From Prostheceraeus crozeri (taxonomy: Eukaryota > Platyhelminthes > Polycladida > Euryleptidae), in NCBI GenBank assembly GCA_907163375.1, contig CAJQUW010003408.1, positions 124,001 to 188,000 of the forward strand: DNA of 64,000 nt, given 5' to 3'. Shown piece by piece: positions 9,036 to 49,296 of this stretch (its first letter is position 1; the number at the start of each line of letters is the position of its first letter). The notes under the pieces are model-generated. The model saw nothing but the letters and a program-made list of their open reading frames with translations. It was not told the DNA's origin and searched no databases. The position numbers and the translations under genes are program-made.

Positions 9036-9163
9036 GACACTCACTTGTAAAATTTGGAAACAGGATTGAATCGGACAAAATTGAGACGGAGAATGGCTTG
9101 TGCAAGTCACACACGCTTTTCAAGTCAAGAGAATGAAATGAAGAGATAATGGGGAGATGACTG

Positions 9164-9210
9164 CTTTTATAGGTTCCTGCGAATCCACACTTGACACTAT
9201 GAGAGCCAAT
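9164..9210 (-). promoter_or_regulatory. CCAAT plus TATA promoter of acidic-tail gene (A)
   Basis: CCAAT at 9206-9210 and TATAAAAG at 9164-9171, both read on the minus strand. Both are conserved at 33871-33916 in element B. Confidence 0.65.
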
Positions 9211-9309
9211 CAGAGTACTCCGTTTCTCCCCTGACTTCGTTGTGGCAGGGAAAAGGAGGCACGCGGACGACTGACTCATGATTGCTTTTCTCAATTCTTG
9301 TAGTCAAAT

Positions 9310-10233: not shown

Positions 10234-13052
10234 TCATGAAAGACTAAAGTCAGTTCGCCTTTTATACTTGTTGGCGAACACATCTATCACATGCTTAATG
10301 TCAATTTTAATTTCTGGGTGGATGTACATTAAGGCAAGTCCAGTCAAACGTTCATCTGACATTCTTGATCGCAGATAATCCTTCAGCAATTTCATGGCAC
10401 TAAAGGCCCTTTCTTCAGAACAGGTTGTTACCGGAATCGTGCAAAATATCTGGAGCATCTTCTTGATAGTGGGCAACCTGAAATATATTCAAAAAATGTG
10501 CATAAGTTTGTGTTAAATATATTCAAATCATGAATCATAAATTATTCCATGAATTATTAATTATTGTCCTGTAATTATTAATCCTGAATTATTAGTCCTG
10601 TCCTGTAATTAGTCATTTTGTAAATTTCATTGTGAAATTAACATAGCATTTTAAACACAAATGAAAGCAAGTCTGACAAGTAGGGCCTAGACCTAGGGCC
10701 TTTACTGTCAATATTTTCAATTGCAATAGGGCCTACTAGGTATGTAGCCTACTAAAAGTACATTGAATGCGGAAATTATTGAAAGATCATACTAGATCAC
10801 AGTGAATCGCTAGCAAACTGAATTGTATTTTGTAGCTTTTTAGTCATACACTTCTATGTGATTACTTACCTTTCGGGCACTAAATCAAGAGCTTCCAAAG
10901 GTGTAGTTGGGGTGTGATTTCCACTTTGGCAGAATCGCTACCAATTGAGGAATTAAATCCGCACCTCCTCTTCATTTGGTGAGCCCAAAATTGTCTTGTA
11001 CATTTCGAAGGCTGGGAGGAGATTATTCCATGTACTCGAGTTGAAGTTGGACGGAATCAGGGCAGTCATCTTTGATACCAGTGTGAAATGGGATGAAAAG
11101 CGAGATCGAAAAGATTCAAGTATGGTATCAAGATACGGAAACCAAATAGCTCTCCTGAAGTATTGGTCTTCATTAGCAGAAGGCACATTGGTTCGATGCG
11201 TTTGCCGGAGTGCAAGGCGTGGTACATGGATAGTAGCTCCCACAGATCTTCCTAGCCTCTTAGCTGCTTCGAAGGGTCCATGGGCTTCATCTGTCCATTC
11301 CGCATCATCCTTGCGCCATGTTTCCAAAGTAGATATGACGAAATCGACGTTTTCCACCGCGTTAACCAAGTCTTGGTTGACAGTTTGCAGATATCTTGAG
11401 ACGGATGCGGTCAGAGCCATAACCTTATGGGCACAAGAGAGAGCTACGATGAATGTGGGCTCGGTGATTGAACGCAGGCAGGATCTTGAAGTGTCAGCAG
11501 TTTTACGGTCAGTGGAAGACAGGAGTCGTTCAAGACATTCAACTATGTGCCTATAATTACTGCAGAAAGTGAGCAGTGCGTCATGCCGTTGAATAAATCG
11601 TGTTTCACAAAATCCTTTCAGACTTTTCATTGAGCTTCCAGCTTCTGAGAGAATTTCCCGGAGAGCTTCTCTTCTTTTGCCGCAGTCATTGAAGAAGTTA
11701 GTGGCGTCTTTCACTGATTGAAACATATCTCGAATTTCTAGGACCTCATTTGACGAGTTTGGGACTAAATTCAACACATGACTGCTGCAATGAACATAGA
11801 TCGCAGAGGGACACATTTCCTAGATCCGTTGTTGAACCCCGCTCACATGGCCTGACATGGTTGATGCTCCATCAAGTCCCTGACCTACCAAATAATCCAG
11901 ATCAAAGATTTTGGATTTCAAATTGTCCATTATTTCATTTGCAAGATTCTCCGCAGAAAGATCGATCACGCTTTTGAACTTCATAAATTCCTCTCTTATT
12001 CTATTGATTCCATTTTCTCGGCTTACAAATCTGACGCATAGGCAGAGCTGTTCTTTGTGAGAAGAGTCTGTGGTCTCGTCTGCAATTATGTAGAAGTATC
12101 GGGATTCATCGATATCATTCTTTATGCTTCTGAATACAGAGTCTCCACATATTTCAATCAATTCATTTTGCGTCGTCTTTGATATGTAAGTCGCATTCTT
12201 GTTTGCCTTTTCTAGATGTTCTTTGAGGACATTATCTCCCGCGTCGATCCGATATGCCAGCAGAGCTCTAAAGTTGCCATCTTCCTTTTCTATTTCTTTA
12301 CTCAGATCCAGCTGTCCATGATCGCGATGTCCATGGAGTGCTATTCCGATCCTTCCGCACAGAATTATTGTTTTGATGATGATTATCAGGCGATTTCTTG
12401 AGTCTTTGACATTCTGTCTGTGCTGGCTATTTATCTGAGAATAGACATCCATCGATGGTTTGTTCAAGATTTGCAGGAACAGGTTAGCGAATTCTTGTGA
12501 GGCTTTGTGATACTCCGTAGATAGATGGCACGAAAGATATCCTCCTGCTCCAGTGAGATGGCTGTATTTGTTAAGGGGAGATGCTACTAGCAGACCAGGT
12601 TCTGTTAATTTTCCTCTGTTGTTCTTGCTGTTTCACCTCAAAATTCCTTGCTGAATTCCTTGCTGAATTCCCAAGTAGACTCTTTGTGGACGCTTGCCAC
12701 CTTTCTGCGTGAAGGGAAAATCGAATTCCTTTGTTGGCATCCAATGCTCAGTTAGTAGACTCTGCTTGGTAGATTTATCCAATCTTGTCACCATACTTGA
12801 ATCTTTTTGACTTTTCTTAAAGACTATATCATTGTCTGAGCACAATGTCATATGCTCGCTTGAAGATGGAGGTGTTGATGTGGAAGAAGTGACACAAGTA
12901 GTGGGCCTGTTGCATGGAGCGTCATCCGATACTGTTGTCACACTGATGCTGTTGTCCACAGTGGATGTATTGGGTTTGGATGATGGGCCTACTCCCTTTG
13001 AGAAGAAGTCGGAAATTAATCGCATTTTCTTCTTTGGCACCTCACCAGACAT
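10234..13052 (-). pseudogene. hAT transposase (zinc-finger MYM-1-like type), broken
   Basis: Pieces in order on the minus strand: 13052-12633 (N-terminal, MRLISDFFSKG), 12467-11820 (YFYIIADETTDSS and GLDGASTMSGHVSG, the RNase-H-like core with its DGAS step), 11816-10953 (YVHCSSHVLNL), and 10476-10234 (CSEERAFSAMKLLKDYLRS, the C-terminal dimerisation domain). A stop separates the second and third pieces. The N-terminal and core pieces are separated by a region that includes a short repeat coding GIQQGIQQG. An intron probably separates the last pieces (acceptor and donor signals near 10480 and 10870). Not functional as read. Confidence 0.85.
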
Positions 13053-14835
13053 ACTTGCTGTAAATGAAATGAAATGAAACTTAGGCCTAGTTAGCTTATG
13101 AAAGAATAAAGACTAGTTCCCAAACAAAATGCATGTAGTCTTGAGCCGACATGTACATGTACAATGTTGTACATGTAATGTACAATTGTATATGCATGTC
13201 CATGGATAATGGATAACATAGGCCTACAGTAGCTACTAGTTTCAAATAAATGGCATATTGTATTATAAGCTTATACATGTATTATGCATGCTTATACATG
13301 GTAATACAAATACTATGTAGTTGCCAGGTTGTCGTCTGCTTTTGCAATCTACTTTGTTCTAAAGAATTTGCCTTCGTTCTTATGCCTTATTACAAGAAAC
13401 AGTCTCATAGGTCTCATAGCTAACTTTTGTCCAAAATTTTATTTTTACTGATTTTTCTTTGGAATTTTATAAATCTGATGTGAAGAGCAAATTACTCTTC
13501 ATTTTTTGTGTATTCTTGTGGAAAATCAACGATGAACAAAATAGTTGAAAAAATTGGCTGTGAGACTTCCTGCTAATGTACGTGTAACCTCAGCGACTTC
13601 TAAAAAGTAACTGGAAATACAAGTTCAAATTTCACCCCTAACTTAACTACTTCCGAGATGAGACGCGCTACTGACTCATGACCGGAGCTGCTGGCGAATC
13701 GATCGCAACTTTAAACTTCCGTCTCCACTCTCAGGTCGGTCCTTCTCAGATGGCATCCGATCAGGGTACCTGCTAGCTTCTCAGACTGTCAAAGTTGTTG
13801 CTTTCGACACTACACCCAGGCAGGTCATCCGGACGAAGTAGGGGAGGAGTTCTAAATTTGCTATTAAAACATACAGAAAGTGGTGGCCAGCCGTCACTGG
13901 GGTCATCCTACTTCTCATGGCCAAGTCGGTGGTACACTAAGCCCTTGAGTTATTCTTGAGTTAAGCTTTGATAGTGGAGCTCTTCCGCTTTGCCACCAAA
14001 GAGGAACACCCAGGCAGTTACCCGGGGCCGAGGTCCCTCACGCTGGAGTTAGTCGAATCTGCTGTCAGAAACGACGCAGCGACAGGGCTTCTGGTGCCGC
14101 TGAGGGGGTTACCCCATACCGTATTGTACCACCGACCTTGAATGTGAATGCATCATTTCATCATCTTCATCTTCAAAATTTGAATACTTACTTCTTTAAA
14201 TCAAAATAACCAATGATGAAGGATAGATAGGGATGAAAGTTTGCACGAAAAGTAGCAGCAGCAATTCAACTTGGCTCTCCTCTCAGTTGACATCGTTTAT
14301 AAAGCTATCAAGAACGAATAATGCAAGAATGTTGAATCATGCGTTCTCATTGGAAATTCAGGAACAAGTGGATAGCTCACTCGCCACTCGCCGCTCGCGC
14401 AATTCGGTTGGTCGTCAGGTCCAGAATCACTTATTCAACGTAAACGAAATCTTGCCGGAGTTGATAGGAATAACATCTGCAAATTACATAATTCAAGTGG
14501 AACTTCTAAAATCGGCATTAAACAGCAGGTCACCTGCGCCTCGTGCGTCAGAGATGCTACAGTTGAATGTAAGCAAACTTCAGCAGAGACCTCTTCATTC
14601 CTTGGTTAGAGGTTCTCGCCTTTCCTTAATTCATTTCTCCATGCTGATAAGAAATCCAGAGGTTTATTATATAATAACGAGAGAAACTGGGCCAAATATG
14701 TTTCAGACTACGATCATTATTTGTACTTTTAAAGAACTAATTGCCAAAATGTATTGCCTGCATTTACAATCCACAATCAAGTTTGAACTGGTGGGGGGGG
14801 ATGCATCCCTGCATTCCCCCTTGGGTCCGCCACTG
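13053..14835. other. Non-coding left part of hAT-1
   Basis: No gene is supported. At 13140-13215 there is a palindromic ACATGTACATGTACAATGTTGTACATG stretch. At 13690-14130 a GC-richer block looks like an inserted repeat of unknown class. An open frame at 14233-14883 runs across the transposon end into element A and has no recognisable features, so I do not call it. Confidence 0.5.
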
Positions 14836-15630
14836 GATGTAGTCCCTAATCACACCTCAAAGACTTTGTCGATGAAAACGTAGCGAACAAAATTCATTCG
14901 TAAACTCTACTGCATCTGTTATCTTTTTCCTATCACATCTGAGACATAGCATGAATGACACAGTTCTAACAAGAAAAAAAGTTCGAAAAACTTTTTGTGC
15001 GAATTTTAACACCAAACCTTGATAGAAGTTTGTTTCACATGTTTCTGAGCAACTTTGGTCAAAACATCACTTTTGACAAAGTTCGACTAGAGGGGGGTGT
15101 TTTTTCATCGAAACATCACCGACACAACTTTTGACGAGAAACACGATGGGAGGGGTCTCGGAGCTCAATTCTGACATTTTTAAATTTCTTTTTTTTTCAC
15201 GAAAAAATCCTAAGTGTCGGAGCCCCATAGTGAAGAAAATTTTCGAAAAAAATTTTTGTGGGAATTTCAACGCCAAACCTTGACTGAAGTTTGTCTCACT
15301 CTTAGCTTTCAAACGAGCTATTGCACGACTTTCTACGATCACTCCCACCCAAGTTGGAAGCTTGACAGGAGAGGGGGGTGTTTTTTCATCGACACATCAC
15401 CGACCCAACTTTTGACGGGAAGCACGATGGGAAGGGTCTCGGAGCTCCATTCTAACATAGGAACGGTTTCCTCCACTCGGTCCGATCATCCCCAGAACAT
15501 CCTTGGCGCCACATCACTGATGTCCGCCTGATGACTCATCGCTGCTCATTTTGCACTTGTTTTTGTCACGGGCTTTTCCATGACTCATCGCTGCTCACTT
15601 TGCACTTGTTTTTGGCATGGGCTTACTACT
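14836..15630 (-). repeat. 5' part of N-domain gene and terminal inverted repeat of element A
   Basis: 14836-14900 continues the gene broken by hAT-1. From about 14950 to 15540 there are two diverged ~280-bp units (GAGGGGGGTGTTTTTTCATCG at 15091 and 15371) related to the terminal repeat of B. The shared phrase GAGCTATTGCACGACTTTCTACGAT is at 15315. The last 100 bases contain two TGACTCATCGCTGCTCA repeats and the terminus GGCTTACTACT. Confidence 0.8.
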
Positions 15631-30959: not shown

Positions 30960-31040
30960 ATTATTTTCAAGAAACTGAAGTTAGCAGTAGATCTGGCACC
31001 AGATTTTTAGAAATAATTTGTTCAATCCGGATTTTCCACA
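30960..31040 (+). repeat. Outer part of a foldback repeat arm, cut by element B
   Basis: The reverse complement of this stretch matches 50098-50165 (GAACAAATTATTTCTAAAAT, then CTAACTTCAGT). The arm continues at 49297 on the other side of element B. Confidence 0.75.
31035..31040. repeat. Element B target site duplication, left
   Basis: TCCACA, identical to 49291-49296. Six-base duplications are the Polinton rule. Confidence 0.93.
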
Positions 31041-33285
31041 AGTAGTAACCCCATGGCAAAATCAAGGACAGTGCGGTGCAGTGATGAGTCATCGATGAGT
31101 CATCAGGCTGACTCAGCCCCCCCCCCTCTGGCAGGAAGGTGAGGGAGAGCGCCAAGGATGTGCTGGGAGGAATGGGTCCGAGAGGAGGAAACGGGTCCCT
31201 CCCCCCTTCTGGAAGGAAGGAGTTTTCCAGCAAGGGAAGGAAGGTGATAGGAATGTGGGAGGGATAGAGTGAGGAAAGGGCGGGTGCTGGTGGTGTTGGG
31301 ATGAGAAAGTCCATGTTTCGGCATGAAGGAGACCTCGGATGGGAAAACGGAGGCCAGATTCGGAATTTTTGGTCAATTTTGGGTTAGGAAGGATGTTTCC
31401 AGCGACATTGGAGAGAAAAAGTTTTGAGGACGTCCCCCCCCTCCTGCCAAACTTCCAACTTTGGTGTGCGAGATGGTAGAAAGTCGTGCAATAGCTCATT
31501 TGAAAGCTAAGAGTGAGAAAAATGCAGTGGAAAGCTCAGTTTGGACTAATTTTGTTGGGTTTAGGGAGGAAAATGGCAGGAAACCGTCAGAGTTGGAAAA
31601 GGCAGGTGTTGGAGGTTTTGGGATGAGAAAAGTCGTTTTTCGGGCAGAAGGAGACCTCGGATGGGAAAATGGAGTGCAAATTCGGACGTTTTGGCCAAAG
31701 TTGGGTCTAGGAATTTCTTCCCAACTCAATCGGAGAGAAACAATTTTGAAGACGTCCCCCCCCTCCTGCCAAACTTCCAACTTTGGTGTGAGAGATGGTA
31801 GAAAGTCGTGCAATAGCTCATTTGAAAGCTAAGAGTGAGACAAATGCAGTGGAAAGCTCAGTTTGGACTAATTTTCTTGCGTTTAGGGAGGAAAATGGCA
31901 GGAAACCGTCAGAGTTGGAAAAGGCAGGTGTTGGAGGTTTTGGGATGAGAAAAGTCGTTTTTCGGGCAGAAGGAGACCTCGGATGGGAAAATGGAGTGTA
32001 AATTCGGACGTTTGGTCAATGTTGGGTCTAGGAACTTCTTCCCAACTCAATCGGAGAGAAAAAGCTCTGACCCCCCCCCCCCCCACTCGGCAACGATCTT
32101 CCAACTTTGGTTGTAGACATCGTAGAAAGTCGTGCAATAGCTCATTTGAAAGCTAAGAGTGAGAAAAATGCAGTGGAAAGCTCAGTTTGGACTCATTTTC
32201 TTGCGTTTAGGGAGGAAAATGGCAGGAAACGTCAGAGTTGGAAAAGGCAGGTGTTGGAGGTTTTGGGATGATAAAAGTCGTTTTTCGGGCAGAAGGAGAC
32301 CTCGGATGGGAAAATGGAGTGCAAATTCGGACGTTTGGCCAAAGTTGGGTCTAGGAATTTCTTCCCAACTCAATCGGAGAGAAACAATTTTGAAGACGTC
32401 CCCCCCCCTCCTGCCAAACTTCCAACTTTGGTGTGAGAGATGGTAGAAAGTCGTGCAATAGCTCATTTGAAAGCTAAGAGTGAGACAAATGCAGTGGAAA
32501 GCTCAGTTTGGACTAATTTTCTTGCGTTTAGGGAGGAAAATGGCAGGAAACCGTCAGAGTTGGAAAAGGCAGGTGTTGGAGGTTTTGGGATGAGAAAAGT
32601 CGTTTTTCGGGCAGAAGGAGACCTCGGATGGGAAAATGGAGTGCAAATTTGGACGTTTGGTCAATGTTGGGTCTAGGAACTTCTTCCCAACTCAATCGGA
32701 GAGAAAAAGCTCTGACCCCCCCCCTCGGCAACGATCTTCCAACTTTGGTTGTAGACATCGTAGAAAGTCGTGCAATAGCTCATTTGAAAGCTAAGAGTGA
32801 GAAAAATGCAGTGGAAAGCTCAGTTTGGACTCATTTTCTTGCGTTTAGGGAGGAAAATGGCAGGAAACCGTCAGAGTTGGAAAAGGCAGGTGTTGGAGGT
32901 TTTGGGATGAGAAAAGTCGTTTTTCGGGCAGAAGGAGACCTCGGATTGGAAAATGGAGTGCAAATTCGGACGTTTTGGTCAGTGTTGGGTCTAGGAACTT
33001 CTTCCCAACTCAATCGGAGAGAAAAAACTCTGACCCCCCCCTCGGCAACGATCTTCCAACTTTGGTTGTAGACATCGTAGAAAGTCGTGCAATAGCTCAT
33101 TTGAAAGCTGGGAGTGAGACAAATTCAGTGGAAAACATGGCTTGTTCGTATCTGCCTTCGTTTAGAGGTGAGACGTTATTGAAAATTTTGGACCTTGGTG
33201 AAAAACGACAGAGTTAGAATGTTTATGAAAATCGCTCTAGCGGGTGACGCAAGCCTCGGACGGGAAAACAGAGACCAGATTTGGC
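31041..33285 (+). repeat. Left terminal inverted repeat of B, built from ~320-bp tandem units
   Basis: The first 160 bases hold the terminus, two GATGAGTCATC sites and GCTGACTCAG. From 31440 the phrase GTAGAAAGTCGTGCAATAGC recurs near 31473, 31797, 32121, 32443, 32760 and 33077, giving six junctions at 317-324 bp. Poly-C runs mark each junction. The inner edge ends in sequence shared with 47600-47740. Open frames on both strands here are a by-product of the repeat. Confidence 0.9.
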
Positions 33286-33378
33286 ATCAGCGTATCATGT
33301 TACACCTGTATGTCATTCATGCTATGTCTCCGAAGTGAAAGGAAGAAAGATGACAGAAGCAGTAAAGTTTACGAATGA

Positions 33379-33771
33379 ATTTGTTCACTACGTTTTCATC
33401 GACAAAGTCTTCGTGGTGTGATTAGGGACTACATCATCTCCTTTCATCATGAAAAGACAGACTTGGAATTTGCTATCGCTAAAGGTTACTCCGTTTTCCA
33501 ACAGCTCATGGACAGTTTGATGAATAAAGATGTGAAAGGACGATTAGTTGCAGAGATCGAATTTGAGAAGCTGACTGAAGAACATGCGGGCGAACGTGTA
33601 GTGTTTCATTTTGCATCATATTCTGCAGAGACGTTGCATGATCCTAAAGATTTCTATCAGCGACACATGGCGAAAATTGCATCTCGACTAGATTCATTTC
33701 ATGAGCATGGATCCAACTTGCTCTTGTGTCGTATAAAACACATTCATATTCAACTCAATGTGCTAAACTAG
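33379..33771 (+). CDS. Stand-alone polymerase N-domain protein 1 (B)
   Basis: Open frame from just after a TGA at 33376, with no ATG at its N-terminal part, so an upstream exon is likely. Similarity begins at LRFHRQSLRGVIRDYIISF. Shared pattern with the polymerase N-terminus and with the genes at 35985 and 45200: F-x-x-L-(I/V)-x-D-(Y/W), KDVKGRLVAEIE, an FxFASY-type step, DFYQRHMAKIASRLDSF, LLLCRIKHIHIQL. Function unknown. In Polintons the region before the polymerase core is a candidate for the terminal (priming) protein, so a DNA-end or priming role is a guess. The A copy is split by hAT-1. Confidence 0.65.
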   Translation: MCSLRFHRQSLRGVIRDYIISFHHEKTDLEFAIAKGYSVFQQLMDSLMNKDVKGRLVAEIEFEKLTEEHAGERVVFHFASYSAETLHDPKDFYQRHMAKIASRLDSFHEHGSNLLLCRIKHIHIQLNVLN

Positions 33772-34044: not shown

Positions 34045-34269
34045 ATGACTGTCTGGCCTTACCAGCATTTTAGAAGAGAGACGCAGGAGAGTGTGTGGCC
34101 GATGATTGTACAAGCTTATTTTGTTGAACCATCACCGCCACCGACTCAACCACCTAGACGCTTTACCTTCAAGTCATTTCAGGAATTGAAACTCAATTCG
34201 GGTCCTAAGCCCAAGACATTTAATTTACTGGACGATGACGAAGACTTAGACTTTGGTGATAAGCTTTAA
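34045..34269 (+). CDS. Small protein with acidic tail (B)
   Basis: 74 residues, MTVWPYQHFRRE at the start and LLDDDEDLDFGDKL at the end, with a proline-rich middle (PSPPPTQPP). The frame is open further upstream, but that part includes the TATA box, so the ATG at 34045 is chosen. It differs from A by a few substitutions and small in-frame indels, which suggests a constrained coding sequence. The acidic tail resembles those that recruit partners in ssDNA-binding proteins, but no family is recognised. Confidence 0.65.
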   Translation: MTVWPYQHFRRETQESVWPMIVQAYFVEPSPPPTQPPRRFTFKSFQELKLNSGPKPKTFNLLDDDEDLDFGDKL

Positions 34270-34347: not shown

Positions 34348-35076
34348 ATGATCATGAATGTACTTAGTGGTATTCTTTCGCTACACACTGCCATGGCCAT
34401 GAATCCTACTGCAACTGCTGCATCATTGAATCCTCAACATCTCGAGCTGTGGAATCCGAAAATTGAAAAGGTAATTCACGGCTATCCTACCTACAAACAA
34501 CAAGTGCGCTACAATGGTTTTCGACTCTATCTTCAAACGCCGGCGGTATACTTACCAAAAGTGGATACGCAAGTAAATCGTTGCGGTCAAAACCTGAGTA
34601 TCCCTATTGATAATTGGTTGCGACAGCAGCTTGACATTTTAGAAGACGTTGTGAGGCAAGAGGCTCTTATTCCTACTGAACTATTACAGTTGTGGCCAGA
34701 AAAGAAAACTTCTTATTATAAACCTTTGTATCGCGGCACTCGCTGCAATATTTTACAAAGAAAGTATTGTAAAGTCACTTCAGGAGTGACAGTTGAACAG
34801 TCAGTTGAAGCAGAATTGTCACCGCTAGGTGTAGGCTTTTATTCATTTCATATTGAGGTGCCTGCTGTCTATGTGGGACCTCATCAATCTGACGGTAATT
34901 TGATTTCTCTCAATTTGCGCATTGCTCAAATTCATCATCAACCTGAGTCAACAGGTCTTGATCACATTGAGAAAGTCATTGATTCTTGTGTCAAAGAGTG
35001 TCAAGAACCTGTCACCAAACCTAAACGTCGTCGTGCATCACAGAAAGATGGTGTTGCCACCAAAGAGAAATCTTAA
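34348..35076 (+). CDS. 242-residue beta-rich protein, larger paralogue (B)
   Basis: Intact in B. Blocks: YNGFRLYLQTPAVYLPKVDT at about residues 54-73, a middle with SIPIDNWLRQQLDILE, YKPLYRGTRC, then GVGFYSFHIEVPAVYVGP and LISLNLRIAQI near 168-200, with a basic tail KPKRRRAS. The C-terminal block is shared with the protein at 36929-37495. The predicted strand-rich pattern and the basic tail would suit a nucleic-acid-binding protein such as a viral-type ssDNA-binding protein, or a structural protein. This is only a suggestion. The A copy has one stop. Confidence 0.65.
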   Translation: MIMNVLSGILSLHTAMAMNPTATAASLNPQHLELWNPKIEKVIHGYPTYKQQVRYNGFRLYLQTPAVYLPKVDTQVNRCGQNLSIPIDNWLRQQLDILEDVVRQEALIPTELLQLWPEKKTSYYKPLYRGTRCNILQRKYCKVTSGVTVEQSVEAELSPLGVGFYSFHIEVPAVYVGPHQSDGNLISLNLRIAQIHHQPESTGLDHIEKVIDSCVKECQEPVTKPKRRRASQKDGVATKEKS

Positions 35077-35813
35077 GTATTCTAATCAGTTAGTTTGTAG
35101 TGAATGTGGAAAACGCGGCCTTGCGCGTTATGTTCAAATAAAACATTGTCATCATGTTGTATGTATCTTTTGTTATGTAAAGGACAGACATCCTTGTAAA
35201 GTTCCTGCTCAATGTATTATTTTGTAATGAAGTCTTTTTGATATTGTAGGTTGTCATCTTCACAGACAGTGAGGGAACACCCATGCAGGAATTGAGTGCT
35301 ATTGCAATGAGAGAAAGTGATCAAACTAATGTTAGTGTATATCATAGATTTGCCTACTGTCCTCCACACAAAGACGAATGGTCACGACGTCATGTGCATG
35401 GACTTGATCCTTCTATTTTGATTCATATTGGATTTGTAAATGAAACGTACTTGATAAGTGATTTCAAACGGTGGCTGTCAGGTTTTCATATTGTTAAAAT
35501 ATTAGGAAATGATTCTGAACGAGAAGCAACAACACTTCAGTTGCACATTGATAATTTATATTTACCATGTTGGGTAGATCGTGTAAGACAAGACTATCAT
35601 ATGCATTGTGATCAAAAGAAGTTTAGAGATGAAATGATTTTTGACATGGCTATATGTTTCGGTGAGAGACATCACCTTTACAGACCACCATCCCATTGTA
35701 ATACTAGAAATAAAGCCACCTACATTGCAAAACTCTCTTCACGCTGGCATTGTAGTCTCTATGACGTTTATGAACTGTATCTATATTATTGTCAACAGCA
35801 TGGGTCTATGTAA
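35048..35813 (+). CDS. Zinc-finger plus DEDDh-type 3'-5' exonuclease-like protein (B)
   Basis: Proposed two-exon gene. Exon 1 (35048-35176) carries C17-x2-C20 and C34-x4-C39-x2-C42 with His33, His35 and His36, a RING/treble-clef-like finger. The intron 35177-35249 (GTAAAG to TTGTAG) keeps frame. Exon 2 starts with VVIFTDSEG, giving the D-x-E of exonuclease motif I. RRHVHGLD and IVKILGNDSERE follow, and HCSLYD gives the H-x4-D of motif III. About 230 residues. The gene overlaps the end of the upstream gene by 29 bases. AATAAA follows at 35894. It may proofread or trim ends for the polymerase (inference). The intron model needs RNA evidence. Confidence 0.65.
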
Positions 35814-35984
35814 AACATGTTTTTGCTCCTTGTGAATGAATGATGATCATTTTATGAAGTGTATTCTGTACTTGTGAATTTTGTCTCGTGTTGAATAAAC
35901 TTACAGTGGAACATGATTGTAATTTCTGTTATTATTCATAGTGGAAGTCATTGAAGCAATGTGAAATCTATAGTTACAACGTTT

Positions 35985-36407
35985 ATGATGGCGCATCGTA
36001 CCTTAAGTAACCACATGTGTCATTTGACACTTGATCAACAAGGATTCGATGGATTTTTACAAGATTGGAAACTTACATTTAAAATGAAGATGAATGATAT
36101 GAAAGTAGTGCTCACTGAAAGCCTTCCTCTCTTCAAAAGATTGATGGAGAGTTTACAACCTCAAGATGTAAAGGGTAGACTCGTTGCTTATATAGAGTTG
36201 AAAGATTTACAAAAACCACTTCGTTTTGGATCTTATTGCATAGAATGAATTACTCTTAGTGATCAATTTTATGGTCGTCATATGGAGAAAATTATGGAGA
36301 GAATAGAAGAGACGTTGGAAGGAAATGCATACGTTGTTAAACATATCATGATTCAACTGAGTGTGTTTACATCCACGACTTTGTTTGATGCGCGACACAT
36401 TGTGTAG
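35985..36407 (+). pseudogene. Stand-alone polymerase N-domain protein 2, one in-frame TGA (B)
   Basis: ATG at 35985 and TAG at 36405, with TGA at 36246-36248 after SYCIE. Conserved blocks are LTLDQQGFDGFLQDWKLTF, QDVKGRLVAYIEL and FYGRHMEKIMERIE. At the TGA position the sister protein at 33379 has Thr, with no length change. The same TGA occurs in element A, so it predates their split, or else it is read through. Confidence 0.65.
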
Positions 36408-36884: not shown

Positions 36885-36928
36885 GAACGACTGAGCTCAT
36901 GGCAATCATTTCCGTCCTTGCGCTAACC

Positions 36929-37495
36929 ATGCAGTTGCTCGAAGCCATCAACTCCTCTGCTCTCGCACTGGGTACACTGAACTCCCTTACTTTAGCATCC
37001 GGTAAAAATGCTTTCAATCAAAAGATAACTCATCATGGAGAAGCCGTAACCATAAAAACTCCAAGTCAACGGATAGATTATCTAAAGATTATGTCAACAA
37101 AGTATGGACTGGCCATGTGTGTGCCGTTAGACTATTGGACACGGTTACAATTCAATACTCTTGAAATATTCCTGAAAGAAAATCTCACCATTGCCAAAGA
37201 AATTGTTCGACACAATGGGAAGCGGCCACAAGTTCCCATCGTGGAAAGAAGATACATGTATGTGCATATGGATAGACACTGTCTCATCATCCATGAAAAG
37301 GAGGGCAACGAATTGGACTTACTCAATTGCAAACCTCTCCCCATTTTGGGAAAAGGATTCTATTCATTTGAAGTTAAAATTCAAACCATCTACATGGGTC
37401 CGCGCAGGGACGGAAGGTTGCTTACTTTGAATCCCTATCTTGTCTCCATGACCTTCAAAAATGATGTCCATGTTGATGATGATCAACTACAGTAA
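36929..37495 (+). CDS. 188-residue protein, smaller paralogue of the pair (B)
   Basis: Starts MQLLEAINSSALALGTLNSL. The ATG at 36899 is too close to the TATA box. Contains PLDYWTRLQFNTLE (compare IPIDNWLRQQLDILE in the larger paralogue) and GKGFYSFEVKIQTIYMGP with LTLNPYLVSM near the C-terminus. It ends in an acidic VDDDQLQ. Intact in both element copies. Family not recognised. Two related proteins in one element suggest subunits or duplicated binding proteins. Confidence 0.65.
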   Translation: MQLLEAINSSALALGTLNSLTLASGKNAFNQKITHHGEAVTIKTPSQRIDYLKIMSTKYGLAMCVPLDYWTRLQFNTLEIFLKENLTIAKEIVRHNGKRPQVPIVERRYMYVHMDRHCLIIHEKEGNELDLLNCKPLPILGKGFYSFEVKIQTIYMGPRRDGRLLTLNPYLVSMTFKNDVHVDDDQLQ

Positions 37496-37712: not shown

Positions 37713-38279
37713 ATGAAACGTCAACTTCAGATAACTCTAGAACGCTTTCATCTACGAAGGTTGCATCGCGCAATCCTATCCAAGTCTTGCCGTGTCATTA
37801 ACGTAGGAGACGGCATTGTATTTATTCGCATTCAAGAGATGATTCTACATAGTGATCACTGCTACATTGTGATTCCAAAACCCTCATGGGAAAAGTATAA
37901 AAGGGAAGTTCACTCAACCCTCATGTCATTTGTGAGTCATACCCCCCATCCACATCATCAACGCCATGCGCGAAATGAATCTCAGAAGAGACATCGATTT
38001 AGAACAGTTGCATACCCATCTTCCCGATTCAGTGTATCATCGCGGTCGTCCGGAAATGTTGGTCATTCGCATGAGCAACGGTCGAAATCTTCAAATCTTT
38101 CGCTGCGGCAAAATCCAAGTCCTAGGAAACTTTTCTCATTTCGTGATGCAGTCCATGTGCTACGAAGTCGTCAAGAAAATGCGAACACTCATGCCTCATC
38201 TCCGCCTCAGTCCCCTGACATTGAAGAATATAGTAGTGTCTGTTCAATTGAAGATTTTAGTGAATCTAACCAACATTAA
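37713..38279 (+). CDS. Unrecognised 188-residue ORF overlapping the TBP-like gene (B)
   Basis: ATG start, open in both copies. The first ~80 residues precede the overlap (IVFIRIQEMILHSDHCYIVI, PSWEKYKREVHSTL). The rest is Ser/Arg/His-rich and read from the same DNA as the TBP-like protein. Between copies the overlap shows about nine residue changes in each frame, so comparison by eye does not decide which frame is constrained. Confidence 0.5.
   Translation: MKRQLQITLERFHLRRLHRAILSKSCRVINVGDGIVFIRIQEMILHSDHCYIVIPKPSWEKYKREVHSTLMSFVSHTPHPHHQRHARNESQKRHRFRTVAYPSSRFSVSSRSSGNVGHSHEQRSKSSNLSLRQNPSPRKLFSFRDAVHVLRSRQENANTHASSPPQSPDIEEYSSVCSIEDFSESNQH
37896..37903 (+). promoter_or_regulatory. TATA box upstream of TBP-like gene (B)
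   Basis: TATAAAAG, 63 bases upstream of the ATG at 37966, inside the upstream ORF, conserved in A. It implies a separate transcript for the TBP-like protein and possible self-regulation. Confidence 0.6.
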
Positions 38280-38478
38280 AACCAGTAATCATTGTATATT
38301 TTATGAAACTGAACTCTTTCCTGCTGCTCTGATTCGGAAGTGGCATCCTGTACATATTGCAGTGTTTCACAATGGACATTGTATCATGACCGGTTTACGT
38401 GATATCAGTAAAGTAGCTGACATTGTTAAATCTTTAATGCGCTATCTGTATGAGTCACAGTTAATAGAATCGTGTTAA
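37966..38478 (+). CDS. TATA-binding-protein-like protein (B)
   Basis: 170 residues, about the length of the TBP core. Lobe 1 (residues ~8-75): DLEQLHTHLPDSVYHRG, MLVIRM, then IFRCGKIQVLGN. Lobe 2 (~82-165): LTLKNIVVSVQL, YETELFPAALIRK, AVFHNGHCIMTGLRDISKV. The two lobes repeat the same order of sheet, F-x-x-G-(K/H) turn and helix, as in TBP. Of the four DNA-inserting phenylalanines, Phe45, Phe118 and Phe134 are present and the first lobe-1 position is proline. The gene is intact in both copies although the polymerases are broken. Likely role: binding the element's own TATA boxes (inference). Some large DNA viruses carry TBP-like genes; I know of none described in a Polinton. Confidence 0.82.
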   Translation: MREMNLRRDIDLEQLHTHLPDSVYHRGRPEMLVIRMSNGRNLQIFRCGKIQVLGNFSHFVMQSMCYEVVKKMRTLMPHLRLSPLTLKNIVVSVQLKILVNLTNIKTSNHCIFYETELFPAALIRKWHPVHIAVFHNGHCIMTGLRDISKVADIVKSLMRYLYESQLIESC

Positions 38479-39780: not shown

Positions 39781-42700
39781 TCAAACATCGCCGGACGGAG
39801 GAGGAGAAAGTTTCTGTCTCTTGGGTGGAGGTAGATGAGTGTCTGGATGGCCGTACGGTAATGAGTGGTTAGGACTCATCCAGCATCGCTTGTCTTCCCA
39901 AGCCGAGAGACCTCGTTTCCTAAACGTTGCTGTTCTGACTTGATGCGACTGTGATTTTAAAATGGTCATTTCTACTTTTTTAATTTTAAGAGAATCTAAG
40001 GCATCTTGATAGTCCCTATGTGTCATTTTTCTAACGATTGACTTCGAGATGCCATTCGCCCGTTTTATAGAAAGCTCTGAGGATTTTAGCTTCATGGAGT
40101 ACATCTTGGGGCGAAGCAAGATCATCTCCTCTATCTGTTTGCCGGCACACTCATCCTTGAAGCAGCCAAGTTTCGCTTTATTTGAGGTAGAGTAAAGCGG
40201 ATGGTCAGTGGGATAGTTGGAACTATCAAACTTGGGTGCTAAGTATTTTGAAATGTCTTCCTGCTTGACTTGGCTCGTGGTTGTCAAAGCTAGGAAGAAG
40301 CTGTCTGTATCACATCCTACTAATTCCACACGTTGGAGAAGTGGACATGTCTTAAAAGTGTGGTAAAATAACTTATACATTTCTAACTTGGAGTGATCCA
40401 AGACAGCTTGACCGACATAAATGGGCTTACAAAGTTCTACTTTAGATTTTAACATTTTAAAACCAGTGATGTCTTCGGAAATGACATCATGGTGGCAAAA
40501 CAAAGGCGAGCGACATAACTTGATACTCGTTTCCGGATCAGTTACGATGGGCTAGTCCATGCGCTTTCTTACATCCTCCATGGTTTTACCAAAGAGGGCA
40601 TTATTCTTAAATTTAAAGAAGTCCTTTTCGAAAGGATTCTTGGATTCAGCCCGTTTCTTACTATTAAATTCTATATACGGTTTTAGAAAGGGCTTCTGTC
40701 TAAACTGGATAGCGCGATGGACTTTATCAAGATAGAATTTGAGGATGGAATAGTGCACGATGTAATGCTGCTTGTTCAATTGGGTGAGCAACAACTTCCT
40801 AGTGGCTTTATACTTTAAGTCATTTTCCGCCTCATACTTCCTATTGTGTTCTTCCATAAAGGGAGAGAACATATCTGGACTGACTATGCCAGATTCGGGT
40901 GCGAGAGGAAAATCAACGGTCCTATTCTTAATGCAGTTTGGATAGATGAGGTCGACTTCAAATAAATAACCTATGTCGGCCTCATCTCCCAGTGCCATGA
41001 TGTGTGCTGGATTGGAGAAGTGTTCAATGTCATGGAGCTCTACCCATTCAAAGTCAGACTGTGGCAAAGGCTTGGAGAGTGCACTCCCATACAAATTATT
41101 TTGGTCTATGTACATTAAATGCGTGGTCGATCATATGTATTGGGTGCTGTTGACAACATGTTTGTTAACAAATGTCAAGCCACCCCTAATACCACGTTCA
41201 AATAACGTGTACATTTCTGCATCTTGCAGTAAATGAATGCTCTCTTTCGTCATCTTGAAGGCTGACTGATAGGACAGACCCGGCAGACTAACAAAATGGA
41301 CGGGGTCTAAGGCGTCCTGTTCTAATGTGACTTTCCTAAAAGTCTCAAACACATCAGCCAACAGATAGACGTCTAATTTTAAGTAGGCAAGCATGTAGTC
41401 ACCAAACGTGCGGCACCTAAATTCTAACCATGCTTGCTGTGCATGCCTATAATCATCCAGCGAACAGTCCTCACCCGTCAAATCATTTTTAAATTTATCG
41501 ATGGACGGAAGGGATGTTTCTTTCAATGTGTCCATTGAACTAAAATAACTATAAGGAAACACCCCTTTCGTCGTATCAGACTGTCACTTATGTTGGGATA
41601 GTCTTTCTTTAAATGTTGAGTGAGGGGAAGTGTTTCTAAATTATTAGCCAACGCGGCTAAGGAAGAAGACATAGACTGGAAACTGTCTAGAAACTTTATG
41701 TCATAGAAGACAGGCTTTCCCTCCTTCGTCTTATCGACTTGGACTTTAGCAGTGATGCACATAAATTTTTCCTTACTTTGTGCAATCACTTTGGATGACC
41801 AGGATTTCATTTTACCGAATCCATGGCGAATGATGATGTGAGCATCATAACATTTAAAGTTATGAAAGATGACGGGGAGCGTTCGCCGTTTCAGTCTAAG
41901 TTTCATATTGCATTTACTGCATAAGGCAGACCTACATTTACCACTGAGATGGTAATGGTCCCTCACTTTCTTATGTTGCTGTTCATCAAAGGATGAACAG
42001 CAGCGGGGACATTCCGTGGTCCTATCAAACTTGATTTTATCGGCTTCTGTGAAGCACATGGGTTTCCTAGTCAGCTCCGTTTCATACCGTTGATGAAAAC
42101 GGGCTTTCCTATCTAGAAAGTTGAGGAAGTTTTCAACCCACTCCTCGCCTTGCCACACATGCATCTTATTTTGATTCCTATAATATGGATGCCAAACTTC
42201 ATAACAGGCAATGGCTGCTGGCTTATGACTTAGATCTTCTTGTTCAATGTAACATTCAATGTCCGCATAGATGGTACATATGGGACTGAACTCATTGCCG
42301 TTTTCCTCATACCTATAAAATTTATCTTTGGGCATGACTTCCATTTGAAGCTTACCCCGAGAGCACCACTCATAATGCTCTTCAAAAAATGGTTTTGACC
42401 TAAAGTGCCGTGTGCAGCGATCACAGTAGTAGAAATTGTTCCTATAGGTTGCTTGATGATGGTATAACTTTGAAATTTTAGGAATGCCACAATAATGCCA
42501 TTCTGGGTGGTTGTCGCTATAGACTAGGAGGAGATTGACAACCCGGTCGAAGTTACTTTGGCGATTATTATACCTAACGCCCTTCTGACCTTTTTCTCAG
42601 AGATGGACGACAATCTTAATATTATTCAATTTTTCAAATTGGGCGATGCCTTTAAAGTCTAATGTGTTGACATCTAACCCGTCAAACTTAAGCTTATCCT

Positions 42701-44573
42701 CCCATTCACGATAGTGAGTGATTCGTTCACGATGCACCCTTATATCATTATAGTGAAGAATGGAGAGGACGGCATACTTGAAACACTGGGACTGACATTC
42801 TACATTGATGACAGCCTTTTTGTCAGCCAGTGCTTTGGGGAGAGTGAAACAACCGCTCCCTTGCAAATTTTCTAAAAGATTAATTTTCATGTCTACCTTC
42901 TCTATCCCATCAAAGACCAGACCGCTGTCTCTTTCATTAAATTTATTTAATTTGCTGATGAGATAGGTCGCATGTCTCTCTATCCACTCGTTTACATCAC
43001 CTATGAGATCAGCAGCACAGGAGGCTATCCTAATGGTCACAGTGGACTCTACTTCTCCCGTGATACTGTCTAGCTTATTGAAACGAGCAGTGAGATAGAA
43101 CATGCCCTTAAGTAAAAATCTATCTAAACTCGCCATAATTTGATGAATTAAGCCTATATGATTCATCAAGAAAGGATGAATGTCCTGCACAGCTTCAGAG
43201 CTTTCTAACTGATAATCGCGAACGAGCCTATCAAGGGAAAACTTGCTCAGCCTTAGAGTGACGTTGTTGTCAGTGTAAAGCTCAGTGAGATGAGTGTGAC
43301 AGAGTGTGTGTGAAGAAAGAACAAACTCTGTAGGAAAGGTCTTCTGACACGAAGAACAGGAAAAGCCGACGTGCGATGAAGGATGCTTCCTACCTGTTGT
43401 TGTCGGTGGTTGCCTCACACTGCCACAGGAACCGCCTCCGATGTGGACTCCCAAGTTGGTGTTGTTGTAGAACGTACGTCCACAACCTTCACACTTGGGC
43501 CGTTGAGGGATCGGTCAGCGTGTCTTCTCCAGTTCTCCCTTCGCTTTTGGGCAGCGAGAATGCCGGTGTCGCCGAAGGCAGAATGGCCTCGCGAAAACCT
43601 GCCCGCAGTCCGTACAGCTGAGCTGTCGAGCCGTAGGTCCTTCTCTCTCCCTCACACCTTCCTCCTCGATTGCAAATTCCTCTCCCACTATCTCTAACTC
43701 CTCCTGCTCCAACAGTCTCTCCACTGACTTGACGGAGAGGAGAGGGAGGTCGGTCGCTGCAGGTGGTGGTGGCGATGCAGGGATGATGATGGGACGAGAA
43801 GGAACGTCGCCGTCCAGGAGGTAGGCCGCCAGATCTGTTGAGAAAAAGAGAAAAGAGATTAGTAAAATGATCAACATTTCAAGTTTGAAGTCTTATCCCC
43901 CTATTTCCCAATCACGATTACTTACCATCTAAGGACTGTAACTCCGGCAGCAGGGATGGACGCGGAGGAGGCAGGAGAGGGACGCGAGCCGAGGGTGGAA
44001 GGGTCCTGGGCTTCGGTGTCGGAGGGACGTAATTGCGAGGAGCAGGGACTGGCGAAGGTACCGGAGCTGGTGGCGGTGGAGGTGGGGCGATAACGATGCC
44101 CGAGAAAGGGGTCGCAGCTTGGGCGGAGGTAGATGAGTGGGAAGGTAGGGTCGGAAATTCCTCGCGGCTTCCTCCCACTTCTTCTTCGCCATATCTGTAG
44201 AGAGAAAAGAGACATTAGATAATGAGACAAGGATGATGCAGAGGATCTGAAACATTATAAACATGAAATGTTAAAGATACTTACACTTGCCAAGCAACTC
44301 ATAGGCTTCCCCGATTGCTCCTTGGGGGACGGGTTCCCCATTACAAATACATTCATGCACTGAAAAAGAATGACAGCAAAGATAAGCAGAGGTAAATTTG
44401 GATTCGGTTTAAACATGAACAAAATAAGGAAGGGGCTCTTGATTTTAATGAGGATGTCTACCCTAATGATGTTAGTAATAGAGTCAATCTTGTTACAAAT
44501 ACTTACATTGCTCGATGGTAGCCTTCTCCATCTCAGCAGCAATTCGATAATTTTCAATTTTTGCGAATTCCAT
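39781..44573 (-). pseudogene. Protein-primed family-B DNA polymerase of element B, multi-exon, broken
   Basis: Proposed exons: 44573-44507 (ATG, MEFAKIENYR), 44359-44285, 44194-43926 (proline-rich) and 43834-39781. The donor after exon 2 is a tandem GTGTAAGT; using the first GT keeps the proline-rich frame. Then come three zinc fingers (CTDCGQVFARPFC near 43590, CEGCGRTFYNN near 43490, CSSCQKTF near 43350), the N-domain (about 43260-42850), the exonuclease domain (YADIEC near 42270, HNFKCYDAH near 41870) and the polymerase (DQNNLYGSAL near 41100, ALFGKT near 40590, DTDSFF near 40315, KMYSM near 40100). Stops or frameshifts lie near 43508, 42598, 41560, 41114 and 40554. It would replicate the linear element from a protein primer; as read it is inactive. 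Confidence 0.9.
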
Positions 44574-45116: not shown

Positions 45117-45199
45117 CACAGACGAGCTAGAGTTCCCGGTGTGCACACGCACATTTGTAACGCGTTATTGAAATCGTGTTAGGCAAAAATTTTGTTTAG

Positions 45200-45666
45200 C
45201 AATAGACTCAACCATAACACCTGAAGTCAATACATTGAAACATGATGATTGTACGATTCGTTTTCATCAAGAGAGCTTCGGAGGCTTAATACAAGATTAC
45301 ATCCTTGAGTTTCAAAGGGAGGAGACTGAATTGGAAGCATGTATAGACTACACACGAGAAATATTTACGGAACTGATATCTTATTTCAAAGACAGCCTCA
45401 TCAAGGCTCACTTAATTGCAAATATCAATTACATTCATTTTCCACATGGTGAAGAAGTGGAAAGCGTTGATTTTCAATTTCCTTCCTACGGACAAGAATA
45501 TGTTACTAATGCTTCTGAGTTTTATACACAACATCTGCAAAAAGTTATTTCTCGGATAGACAACTTTCATGGTTACGGCAATCATTTGCTTCTGAATAAA
45601 ATAAACCATATTGTCATTGCAATTAGTAAAGTGGGTTTCAATGATGTTAAATCAAAGACCAAATAA
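45200..45666 (+). CDS. Stand-alone polymerase N-domain protein 3 (B)
   Basis: The open frame has no ATG before the conserved part; a TTTGTTTAG acceptor at 45199 suggests an upstream exon. Blocks: IRFHQESFGGLIQDYILEF, DSLIKAHLIANINYI, EFYTQHLQKVISRIDNF, GNHLLLNKINHIVIAI. The same pattern is seen in proteins 1 and 2 and in the polymerase N-terminus, but this copy is the most diverged. The stop lies within an AATAAAG motif. Role unknown. Confidence 0.6.
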
Positions 45667-46240
45667 AGTATTTTATCATGACACTTGTGTTGTGCTAAAC
45701 TTTCTAGCGCTGTGGTGAACACTGTTTTCATATAACATTCTAAACTCTCATTGCAGTAGAAAACTGCTTTTAGTAAACCTGATGAAGCCAATCTAACAGT
45801 TATGGAGTTTGAATTTTCTAATAAGGGAACATTTGCCAACTGTCTCCAATAAAACTTTCTAACACTGTGAAAGTAAGTTACGAGACAATTAGTGCTGCTG
45901 TGAGTTCGGTCAGTCATACAACTTCAATGATTAAACTTTATTTTCACAAACGTGCGTTGCGGTAATGTTATTTGACTACACTAAGTTTGCAAACCATGAT
46001 ACACTTTCTGACTAGACTTATGAATACAACTTCAATGATCAAACTTTCTAACTATACATCAACCTGTGCTGCAGTAAAACTTTTGTACGACACTGACAAG
46101 AGCTTTTTCACTAGCGAAGAGAGAAGTCTGTGATGTGTTGCGTGTGGCACATGAATGTCCTCCCTTCATTCCTTCATCATTTCGTCTCCGTGATAGAGAC
46201 AAGAAGAACTGATGGTTCATTCTCGCATGGTTGGCCAACT
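45667..46240. other. Intergenic in B, no gene seen
   Basis: Diverged phrases AAACTTTCTAAC and CTTCAATGATTAAACTTT are repeated. Nothing coding is supported. Confidence 0.45.
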
Positions 46241-46244
46241 GTTG

Positions 46245-46900
46245 GGAGACAAGTGCAATGGAGATTTTATGAGGTTACCTGTGGCAGATAGCTAAATGTC
46301 ACCCTGGCGGTCAGAGTACAACGTTGAGACGAAAGGCAACCACTTGCAAACATGACGCAGAGAGGTTTCACAAGGATTACCATTGCCAACGTCCCGTGCA
46401 GTACTCATCGCTACGGACTTCACCGATGTCTCGAAAGATACGCCTACGGGAAGTATCACACTGAAAATCTCCGTGACTTGCACCGTCCATGACTTGATCG
46501 CCAGACATGAAAACCGGTGGAGTTGGTAAGAGGTTGGCAGACTTGGATCAGCTTGATAGCAAGCCGTAGAGAGCTTGATTCACCAGCGTTTTGCAATGGA
46601 GATGTTTAGAGGCCACCCATGACAAGATAGCTAAGACTCAACCGATTGGCGTTCAAAGTGAACTTCTTGAGAACTGTGTCAAATGCCCAACATGAGACAT
46701 GAGTTGCCCCAGCGGTTTCGGTCTAAACTATGACACACTCCCTTGCCACACTTATCACTACGGCATCGCCCGCCGTCCCGAAGGAACACCCTCTCAGAGG
46801 AATATTACAGCAAAACTCTCCGTGTCTTGCTCGCTTTCAGTGAAAAGCTGCTTATACGATGAGAAGACTGGCTCAGACATCATTAAAATCATCTAGTTGA
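46245..46900. repeat. Diverged ~350-bp tandem duplication in B
   Basis: Units start near 46255 and 46595 (TGCAATGGAGAT, then GATAGCTAA). Both contain a frame ending in T-P-x(3-5)-I-T-x-K-(I/L)-S-V-(T/S)-C. Part of the second unit also matches 44787-44900. Possible remnants of a duplicated gene of unknown nature. Confidence 0.5.
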
Positions 46901-47599
46901 CTTCAGCAGGGTCGAAAACCCCAGAAAACCTCCAAAACTAGTGAATTTAAATTTTTAACTTTTAGCACTACTTATGAAATTTTATAAGTAGTTTATCACT
47001 TAGGGCAGGTCAATAGCGACCGAACCTTTTTTGAATCAAGTCAAACGGACTTGTAGAAGCAAAGTTACAAGCCTTTAAAGTTTTGGAGTCTTTTATGGCC
47101 TGGAGACGAAGGCCATCTCCTGGCGAACCTCTAAGTCTGACGCCTTAGCTGACTTCAGCAATGAAATTTTCTAAGTCGGTTTCTTGCAGAAACCCGGTTT
47201 TTCAGATTTCCAATGCTATCATCGGAGCTCCGGAGTTCACCTACCCCAACCCAGTCGGGAGGAGAATTGATTTCCACAAGCAGAGTTTCCACTTATATAG
47301 TGTGTGGCGATCAGCTGATGACGTAATAGCCATCATCAAAACACTAAAAACCCGTCTATCTCCGGTTCTAGTGCTCCGATTGAGCTGGAAATACGCCATT
47401 TCCATGCACAATTTGACGCTGAATCCGAATCTGCCCTCCATTTTCCCATCCGATGCTTCGTTTTGGCTCTACAGCCTGCAGCCATCGCAAAAATTCCAAC
47501 AGTCGTTTTTCGGAAAAAATGATGAAAAATTTTTTTCTCTCCGATAGCTTTCAAATTTAGCATGCCGAAGCAGAATTTGACGCTGATTCTAAATCCGTT
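46901..47599. other. Inner flank of right terminal repeat, degenerate units
   Basis: 47200-47560 contains sequence loosely related to the terminal units (CCGATGCTTCGTTTTGGC, TTTTTCTCTCCGATAG). Short frames here are not convincing genes. Confidence 0.45.
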
Positions 47600-49290
47600 C
47601 TCTGTTTTTCCGTCCGAGGCTTGCTTCACCCGCTAGAGAGATTTTCATAAACATTCTAACTCTTGTCGTTTTTCGCCAAGGTCCAAAATTTTCAATGACG
47701 TCTCACCTCTAAACGAAGGCAGATGCAAACAAGCCACGTTTTCCACTGAATTTGTCTCACTCCCAGCTTTCAAACGAGCCATTGCACGGCTTTCTACGAT
47801 ATCTCACACCAAAGTTGGAAGTTTGGCAGGAGAGGGGGAGTCAGAGCTTTTTCTCTCCGACTGAGTTGGGAAGAAGTTCCTAGGCCCAACTTTGACCAAA
47901 ACGTCCGAATTTGCACTCCATTTTCCAATCCGAGGTCTCCTTCTGCCCGAAAAACGACTTTTCTCATCCCAAAACCTCCAACACCTGCCTTTTCCAACTC
48001 TGACGGTTTCCTGCCATTTTCCTCCCTAAACGCAAGAAAATTAGTCCAAACTGAGCTTTCCACTGCATTTTTCTCACTCTTAGCTTTCAAATGAGCTATT
48101 GCACGACTTTCTACGATGTCTACAACCAAAGTTGGAAGATCGTTGCCGAGGGGGGGGTCAGAGCTTTTTCTCTCCGATTGAGTTGTGAAGAAGTTCCTAG
48201 ACCCAACATTGACCAAACGTCCGAATTTGCACTCCATTTTCCCATCCGAGGTCTCCTTCTGCCCGAAAAACGACTTTTCTCATCCCAAAACCTCCAACAC
48301 CTGCCTTTTCCAACTCTAACGGTTTCCTGCCATTTTCCTCCCTAAACGCAAGAAAATTAGTCCAAACTGAGCTTTCCACTGCATTTTTCTCACTCTTAGC
48401 TTTCAAATGAGCTATTGCACGACTTTCTACGATGTCTACAACCAAAGTTGGAAGATCGTTGCCGAGGGGGGGGTCAGAGCTTTTTCTCTCCGATTGAGTT
48501 GGGAAGAAGTTCCTAGACCCAACATTGGGAAGAAGTTCCTAGACCCAACATTGACCAAACGTCCGAATTTGCACTCCATTTTCCAATCCGAGGTCTCCTT
48601 CTGCCCGAAAAACGACTTTTCTCATCCCAAAACCTCCAACACCTGCCTTTTCCAACTCTGACGTTTCCTGCCATTTTCCTCCCTAAACGCAAGAAAATTA
48701 GTCCAAACTGAGCTTTCCACTGCATTTTTCTCACTCTTAGCTTTCAAATGAGCTATTGCACGACTTTCTACGATGTCTACAACCAAAGTTGGAAGATCGT
48801 TGCCGAGGGGGGGGGGTCAGAGCTTTTTCTCTCCGATTGAGTTGGGAAGAAGTTCCTAGACCCAACATTGACCAAAACGTCCGAATTTGCACTCCATTTT
48901 CCCATCCGAGGTCTCCTTCTTCCCGAAAAACGACTTTTCTCATCCCAAAACCTCCAACACCTGCCTTTTCCAACTCTAACGGTTTCCTGCCATTTTCCTC
49001 CCTAAACCCAAGAAAATTAGTCCAAACTGAGCTTTCCACTGCATTTTTCTCACTCTTAGCTTTCAAATGAGCTATTGCACGACTTTCTACGATGTCTACA
49101 ACCAAAGTTGGAAGATCGTTGCCGAGGGGGGGGTCAGACCCGTTTCCTCCTCTCGGACCCATTCCTCCCAACACATCCTTGGCGCTCTCCCTCACCTTCC
49201 TGCCAGAGGGGGGGCTGAGTCAGCATGATGACTCATCGATGACTCATCACTGAACCGCACTGTCCTTGATTTTGCCATGGGGTTACTACT
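47600..49290 (-). repeat. Right terminal inverted repeat of B
   Basis: Inverse of 31041-33285 with five GCACGACTTTCTACGA junctions (near 47787, 48102, 48418, 48765 and 49079) against six on the left. It has a local 25-bp duplication near 48500-48550 and ends GGGGTTACTACT. TGACTCATCGATGACTCATC lies 40-70 bases from the terminus. Confidence 0.9.
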
Positions 49291-49296
49291 TCCACA
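49291..49296. repeat. Element B target site duplication, right
   Basis: TCCACA, identical to 31035-31040. Confidence 0.93.

Follow-up and report, generated by a model that had tools for sequence, protein, structure and literature searches.

The DNA examined here, called the window throughout, is a 64,000-nucleotide stretch from the polyclad flatworm Prostheceraeus crozeri (contig CAJQUW010003408.1, positions 124,001 to 188,000 of the forward strand), and it carries two copies of a mobile element whose features fit a Maverick-related class. The more complete copy has an 18,250-bp body that includes, at 37966..38478 on the plus strand, an open reading frame (ORF) of 170 residues, counted from its first ATG, for a protein with TATA-binding-protein (TBP) domains. 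The second copy is reversed and cut by the window start (1..15387, minus strand), with an insert at about 9655-14836, and has its own TBP-domain ORF at 4776..5288 on the minus strand. The two copies are 86-94% identical in gapped blocks and up to 99% in ungapped stretches.

The TBP-domain gene and its family

The original prediction, made from the letters of the window, was that this ORF encodes a TBP-like factor. The ORF and the motifs quoted for it are present as described, and the two checks proposed for its identity, a Pfam search and a structure prediction, both bear the claim out. The product matches the Pfam TBP profile (PF00352) in two stretches (E 6e-20, 71.3 bits against a cut-off of 22.9), and the ORF of the second copy matches it as well (E 1.8e-16). 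The matches of a phmmer search against the PDB are TBPs, the best being 1mp9 (2.6e-10), and the predicted structure has the two-lobed saddle fold of the TBP superfamily. Identity to TBPs of known structure is 19-24%, with human TBP at 19%. Profile, fold and family conservation together support the assignment of the product as an element-encoded, very divergent protein of the TBP superfamily.

The gene is far from unique within its genome. A search of 2.05 Gb (14,165 contigs) with the TBP protein gave 11,332 candidates, the best 150 of which were scored. Each of these 150 aligns along all 170 residues with 95-100% identity, and 148 have no stop, so that the genome holds at least 150 copies of the gene. 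Twenty copies, chosen from the top of the ranked list, were read at 10 kb. All 20 contain the genes resembling single-strand-DNA-binding proteins (SSB-like genes), the conserved ORF at 35250, a gene related to the polymerase N-terminal domain and the ORF that precedes TBP; a piece of the polymerase is found in 19, and both polymerase pieces that were tested are full and stop-free in 13. Forty copies, 20 taken from the head of the ranked best 150 and 20 from its tail, have a mean identity of 98.4% in the TBP gene. The fixed place of the gene in so many copies raises confidence in the role proposed below, that of a promoter factor for the element.

A protein search returned 109 relatives among 121 candidates, all with the Pfam TBP domain, 39-98% identical and encoded on contigs of up to 20.5 kb. 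Contact residues were counted over 110 family rows, each site over the rows with a letter there, using a yeast TBP numbering and residue roles (DNA contact, TFIIB contact) that we take to be the standard ones. On the DNA side the family keeps N69 (84/85), F116 (108/108), N159 (108/109), F190 (110/110), F207 (109/109) and T215 (108/109), so that both groove asparagines are retained. Three of the four DNA-inserting phenylalanines of canonical TBP are present, as had been noticed in the window ORF, and F99 is replaced. The E-x-E-L stirrup that contacts TFIIB is kept as well (E186 in 107, E188 in 110 and L189 in 105 of 110 rows). The second lobe is TBP-like, TFIIB-holding surface included, and the first lobe lacks one kinking phenylalanine and one threonine.

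A tree was computed from 28 of the 109 relatives and the two window copies, together with 8 of 12 viral loci and 5 cellular TBPs, none of them from an animal. The viral loci left out were duplicates or near-copies (L015, L017, L018) or split (L020, a 17-kb IMG/VR contig whose TBP gene at 7489-8031 is divided into two ORFs). The 28 relatives and the window copies form a single clade with support of 100/100, its stem being 4.18 changes per site long. Three branches are flagged as long in the output, as is the meeting of long branches; the attachment of the clade is therefore unsure, and the tree is taken here as evidence for the unity of the family alone.

Contigs of other genomes were also scanned. 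In IMG/VR, no relative was found by the TBP family alignment, the polymerase ORF of the second copy, a close polymerase alignment or an SSB-like alignment, and a wide polymerase alignment found 2 relatives. The GTDB scans gave no contig with the TBP and 8 with the polymerase, all 8 of them without a TBP match.

Structure and gene content of the element

The element is bounded by the same 6 bases, TCCACA, directly outside both inverted repeats (31035..31040 on the left, 49291..49296 on the right), a target-site duplication seen in the window copy only. The left terminal inverted repeat (31041..33293, plus strand) starts AGTAGTAACC and holds tandem repeats of about 320 bp at 31273-33134; the right one (47580..49290, minus strand) ends GGTTACTACT and holds such repeats at 47740-49138. 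The ends of the element read AGTAGT//ACTACT, and an excerpt of a study of vertebrate Mavericks gives end motifs (AGT)2//(ACT)2 and 6-bp duplications (PMC8097293). The element is like the Mavericks and Polintons of that excerpt in its ends, duplication, inverted repeats and family B polymerase, and unlike them in that integrase, ATPase and capsid genes are unrecognised here and a TBP, two SSB-like and three polymerase-N-domain genes are present. The exact 12-base end is absent from the 20 ten-kb copy pieces, which need not reach the ends, and its 9-base form from 3 further pieces.

The Polinton-type family B DNA polymerase (39781..43514, minus strand) is broken into several ORFs. In tblastn searches with Polinton-like virus polymerases it is matched at 5e-114 in the window and at 4e-138 in the second copy, and Pfam DNA_pol_B_2 scores 21.6 bits on one window piece, below the cut-off of 25.8, and 52.6 bits on the piece of the second copy. 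One integrase query remained unmatched in the window, the 20 copy pieces and the 3 further pieces, where a strongly diverged gene is possible, and Pfam scans of chosen ORFs showed no integrase. Two ATPase and four capsid-like queries, most of them labelled by eye, had no match under E 0.1 in the window or the copy pieces; their sole positive control was the polymerase, which is better conserved. The ends, 6-bp duplication, inverted repeats and polymerase fit the label of a Polinton-type element, but neither the window copy nor the pieces of other copies yielded a recognisable gene for an integrase, a packaging ATPase or a capsid protein, so that a complete Polinton is not demonstrated.

Most of the other genes lie to the left of the TBP gene on the plus strand. 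An SSB-like gene at 34348..35076 has a paralogue at 36899..37495 (phmmer 43 bits between the pair, in a tiny database) that is matched in 20 of 20 copies. The N-terminal domain of the polymerase has a stand-alone relative at 33379..33771 (phmmer 34 bits, also in a tiny database), a truncated second one at 35955..36248 (38 bits to the first) and a third at 45172..45666 on the same strand (89 bits to the first), present in 3 of 3 copies; the three are possibly replication partners. A short protein of 74 residues with an acidic C-terminus (34045..34269) has no Pfam match and follows TATAAAAG at 33910. The conserved ORF at 35250..35813 has no Pfam match above cut-off and resembles a nuclease by eye only, and 11 of its 14 shared variants are synonymous. 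On the minus strand, 46182..46942 is the site of an ORF missing from the window copy; three other copies have there an ORF of 405-468 residues (L071:3153-4367, L072:2853-4256, L073:3394-4638), which by eye is rich in cysteine and histidine at its start and has a coiled coil. This ORF was considered as an integrase and rejected, as no Pfam profile matched it above cut-off and a PDB search gave nothing convincing.

Directly before and over the start of the TBP gene, in another frame, runs an ORF of 188 residues (37713..38279, plus strand), the first 84 of which are stop-free in 20 of 20 copies. Within the overlap, the differences between the window copies amount to 0 synonymous and 11 non-synonymous in this frame, and to 5 and 6 in the TBP frame. 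A second gene over the TBP overlap was rejected on these counts, and the overlap is probably non-coding in that frame. The 217 bp that separate the second SSB-like gene from this ORF (37496-37712) are identical in both window copies, other parts of which differ by 1-14%, a pattern that reflects either gene conversion or constraint.

A TATA box, TATAAAAG, stands at 37896..37903 on the plus strand, inside the overlapping ORF; it precedes the first ATG of the TBP gene by 70 bp. Of 38 readable genomic copies, 32 have it at that place and 6 lack it. TATAAAA also occurs ahead of two other element genes, at 33910 and 36877. The element core contains 12 TATAAAA against 2.8 expected, 3 of the 12 within a tandem repeat, and its density is 0.84 per kb versus 0.08 and 0.58 in two window stretches outside both copies. 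The boxes that were said to precede several genes are found at the -70 site and these two others, but the repeat and the modest overall excess take some weight from the claim.

Elsewhere in the window, two AT-rich stretches (62460-63998 and about 20000-24000, 28-31% GC) have ORFs with no Pfam match above cut-off. By eye these look like parts of a different Polinton-like element: the ends of a packaging ATPase and of a polymerase, and minor capsid pieces. ORFs in the insert of the second copy (9655-14836) and at 24679-25838 resemble hAT transposases by eye. An ORF of 404 residues at 16048-17262 resembles a rhodopsin-family receptor (Pfam 7tm_1 28.1 bits, below the cut-off of 30.5), a hint that the host is an animal. 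No tRNA genes were found in the window.

Variation and selection among the copies

The two TBP ORFs of the window differ at nine residues, as originally counted, and both are open beside polymerases that are indeed broken in both copies. That contrast had been read as a sign of a maintained gene, but it carries little weight alone, the simulated chance of no stop arising among 15 differences being 0.63. The proposed comparison of non-synonymous and synonymous change between the two window copies did not succeed either: a first count gave a ratio of 0.39, and the synonymous count (6 or 5, by the treatment of codons with two changes) is in no significant excess among the 15 differences (simulation P 0.35).

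The wider sample is more informative. Over the 40 genomic copies and the window's two, TBP variants present in at least two rows are synonymous in 21 of 27 cases (neutral expectation 27%) and singletons in 43 of 105, and the synonymous shares differ (Fisher P 0.001). Two genes not used for ranking show near-neutral singletons (17/50 and 10/30 synonymous) and mostly synonymous shared variants (16/21 and 11/14). These two genes support selection on the lineage of the element, and the contrast between shared and single variants points the same way for TBP, with the caveat of a ranking bias that is taken up below.

Proposed role, alternatives and known relatives

The proposal starts from what is observed: the TBP domains, their predicted fold, contact residues kept across the family, a constant position of the gene in a Maverick-ended element of many copies, and a TATA box at a fixed distance. 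From these we infer DNA binding, promoter choice and TFIIB recruitment, and we consider it likely that the protein is a dedicated promoter factor for the genes of the element. It would bind TATA-like boxes of these genes and bend the DNA, still kinking one end of the box, and the conserved stirrup of its second lobe would recruit host TFIIB and RNA polymerase II. The genes would then be transcribed without full dependence on host TFIID. The changed first lobe predicts that one half of the TATA box is read in a relaxed or altered way.

Several observations weigh against this proposal. The structure model has a predicted template modelling score (pTM) of only 0.60, which leaves the angle between the lobes unsure. 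F99 has become P in 101 of 103 family rows and T124 has become L in 101 of 108, so canonical TATA recognition is not assured, and the general TATA enrichment is only mild. Ranking by TBP protein similarity itself favours synonymous change (16 of 20 singletons in the top 20 are synonymous), and the pattern in the two unranked genes speaks for selection on the element but not for selection on TBP in particular. The suggested search for the same element in other genomes did find the 109 protein relatives, but no relative in its DNA context in the IMG/VR and GTDB contig scans. Lastly, all 40 of the other genomic copies have an in-frame upstream ATG, which both window copies lack.

This last point concerns the start of the gene. 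The window frame is open upstream of the first ATG to 37936 and has no ATG there, and 86 of 110 family rows reach upstream of that ATG. Both window copies look damaged at the TBP start and may be decaying, and it seems on balance probable that these two, and these two only, are relics without a working protein, which is compatible with a promoter factor elsewhere in the genome. The second copy is altered at positions 28, 114 and 120, where the family has R (103/103), E (107/110) and A (110/110), and the lack of significant selection between the pair and their broken polymerases likewise speak for relics. That said, the ORFs remain open across the TBP domains, and a start at the later ATG is possible. 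Copies with the upstream ATG and stop-free polymerase pieces indicate that less damaged copies exist and that the window's two are atypical.

Other roles can be imagined for an intact protein. It might act as a decoy or inhibitor that occupies TATA boxes or ties up TFIIB, damping host transcription or silencing rather than driving element genes. A TFIIB stirrup that 105 to 110 of the 110 rows retain, beside partly changed first-lobe contacts, would suit this, but a TFIIB sponge would need neither the groove asparagines nor the three phenylalanines, and we think the idea unlikely. An equally small chance is given to a role in replication or integration rather than transcription, with the protein bending DNA at the ends or the repeats of the element; the gene adjoins SSB-like and polymerase genes and the tandem repeat near 39 kb has TATAAAA as well, yet a conserved stirrup has no reason in such a role. 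Since TBP is, as general knowledge has it, a host gene in all animals, the element could also have captured the TBP of its host recently. Identity of just 19-24% to TBPs of known structure (human 19%), as against 39-98% to 109 database proteins, makes this very improbable, as does the fully supported, long-stemmed clade of 28 relatives and window copies, in a tree that holds no animal TBP.

A promoter factor of this kind would have partial counterparts. The family shares with eukaryotic and archaeal TBPs (PF00352) the two-lobed fold, groove asparagines, three phenylalanines and TFIIB stirrup, and departs from them in F99->P, T124->L, its low identity and a separate long branch. TBP-like proteins of large DNA viruses in BFVD, such as that of Heterosigma akashiwo virus 01, are likewise a virus-borne TBP fold, but identity is 9-18% among 24 matches under 1e-3, and the carrier here is an 18-kb element. 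The genomes of TBP-bearing large DNA viruses are large. Among Polinton-like virus contigs of IMG/VR, L001 and L002 have a polymerase whose similarity runs along most of the protein (4e-138 to the second copy). Unlike the element, L001 has an integrase and an ATPase by Pfam and capsid genes by eye, and no TBP family profile match was obtained up to E 10 in L001 (14,586/17,398 bases) or L002 (12,826/15,128 bases).

To our knowledge, the general transcription factor TBP is otherwise known from cells and large viruses and, in mobile DNA, from large viruses. Excerpts of the literature place a TBP in 59% of mirusvirus genomes (PMC10132985) and sporadic TBP genes in algal elements of putative mirusvirus origin (PMC10675990). 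The impression that no described Polinton has a TBP agrees with searches of open-access literature, in which none was found reported for Polintons, Mavericks, Polinton-like viruses or adintoviruses. What is new is that a Maverick-related element of many copies has a divergent branch of TBP, TBP genes in large viruses being already known. The fullest version of the proposal, a Maverick-related and apparently capsid-less lineage at high copy number whose own TBP, of a previously unrecognised family, gives it private promoters that work through host TFIIB and RNA polymerase II, is tentative, with a chance somewhat short of even.

If the proposal is true, a transposable element of 18 kb has a gene for a general transcription factor, and the presence of the gene suggests that the element supplies some of the machinery for switching its own genes. 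Virophages, by contrast, are believed to depend on the factors of their giant viruses (PMC8547959). A natural TBP with one lobe rebuilt allows testing of which lobe sets TATA specificity. The finding also bears on the movement of transcription genes between Polinton-like elements and large viruses, and a TBP in a high-copy element of this size would show that one small gene gives some transcriptional independence.
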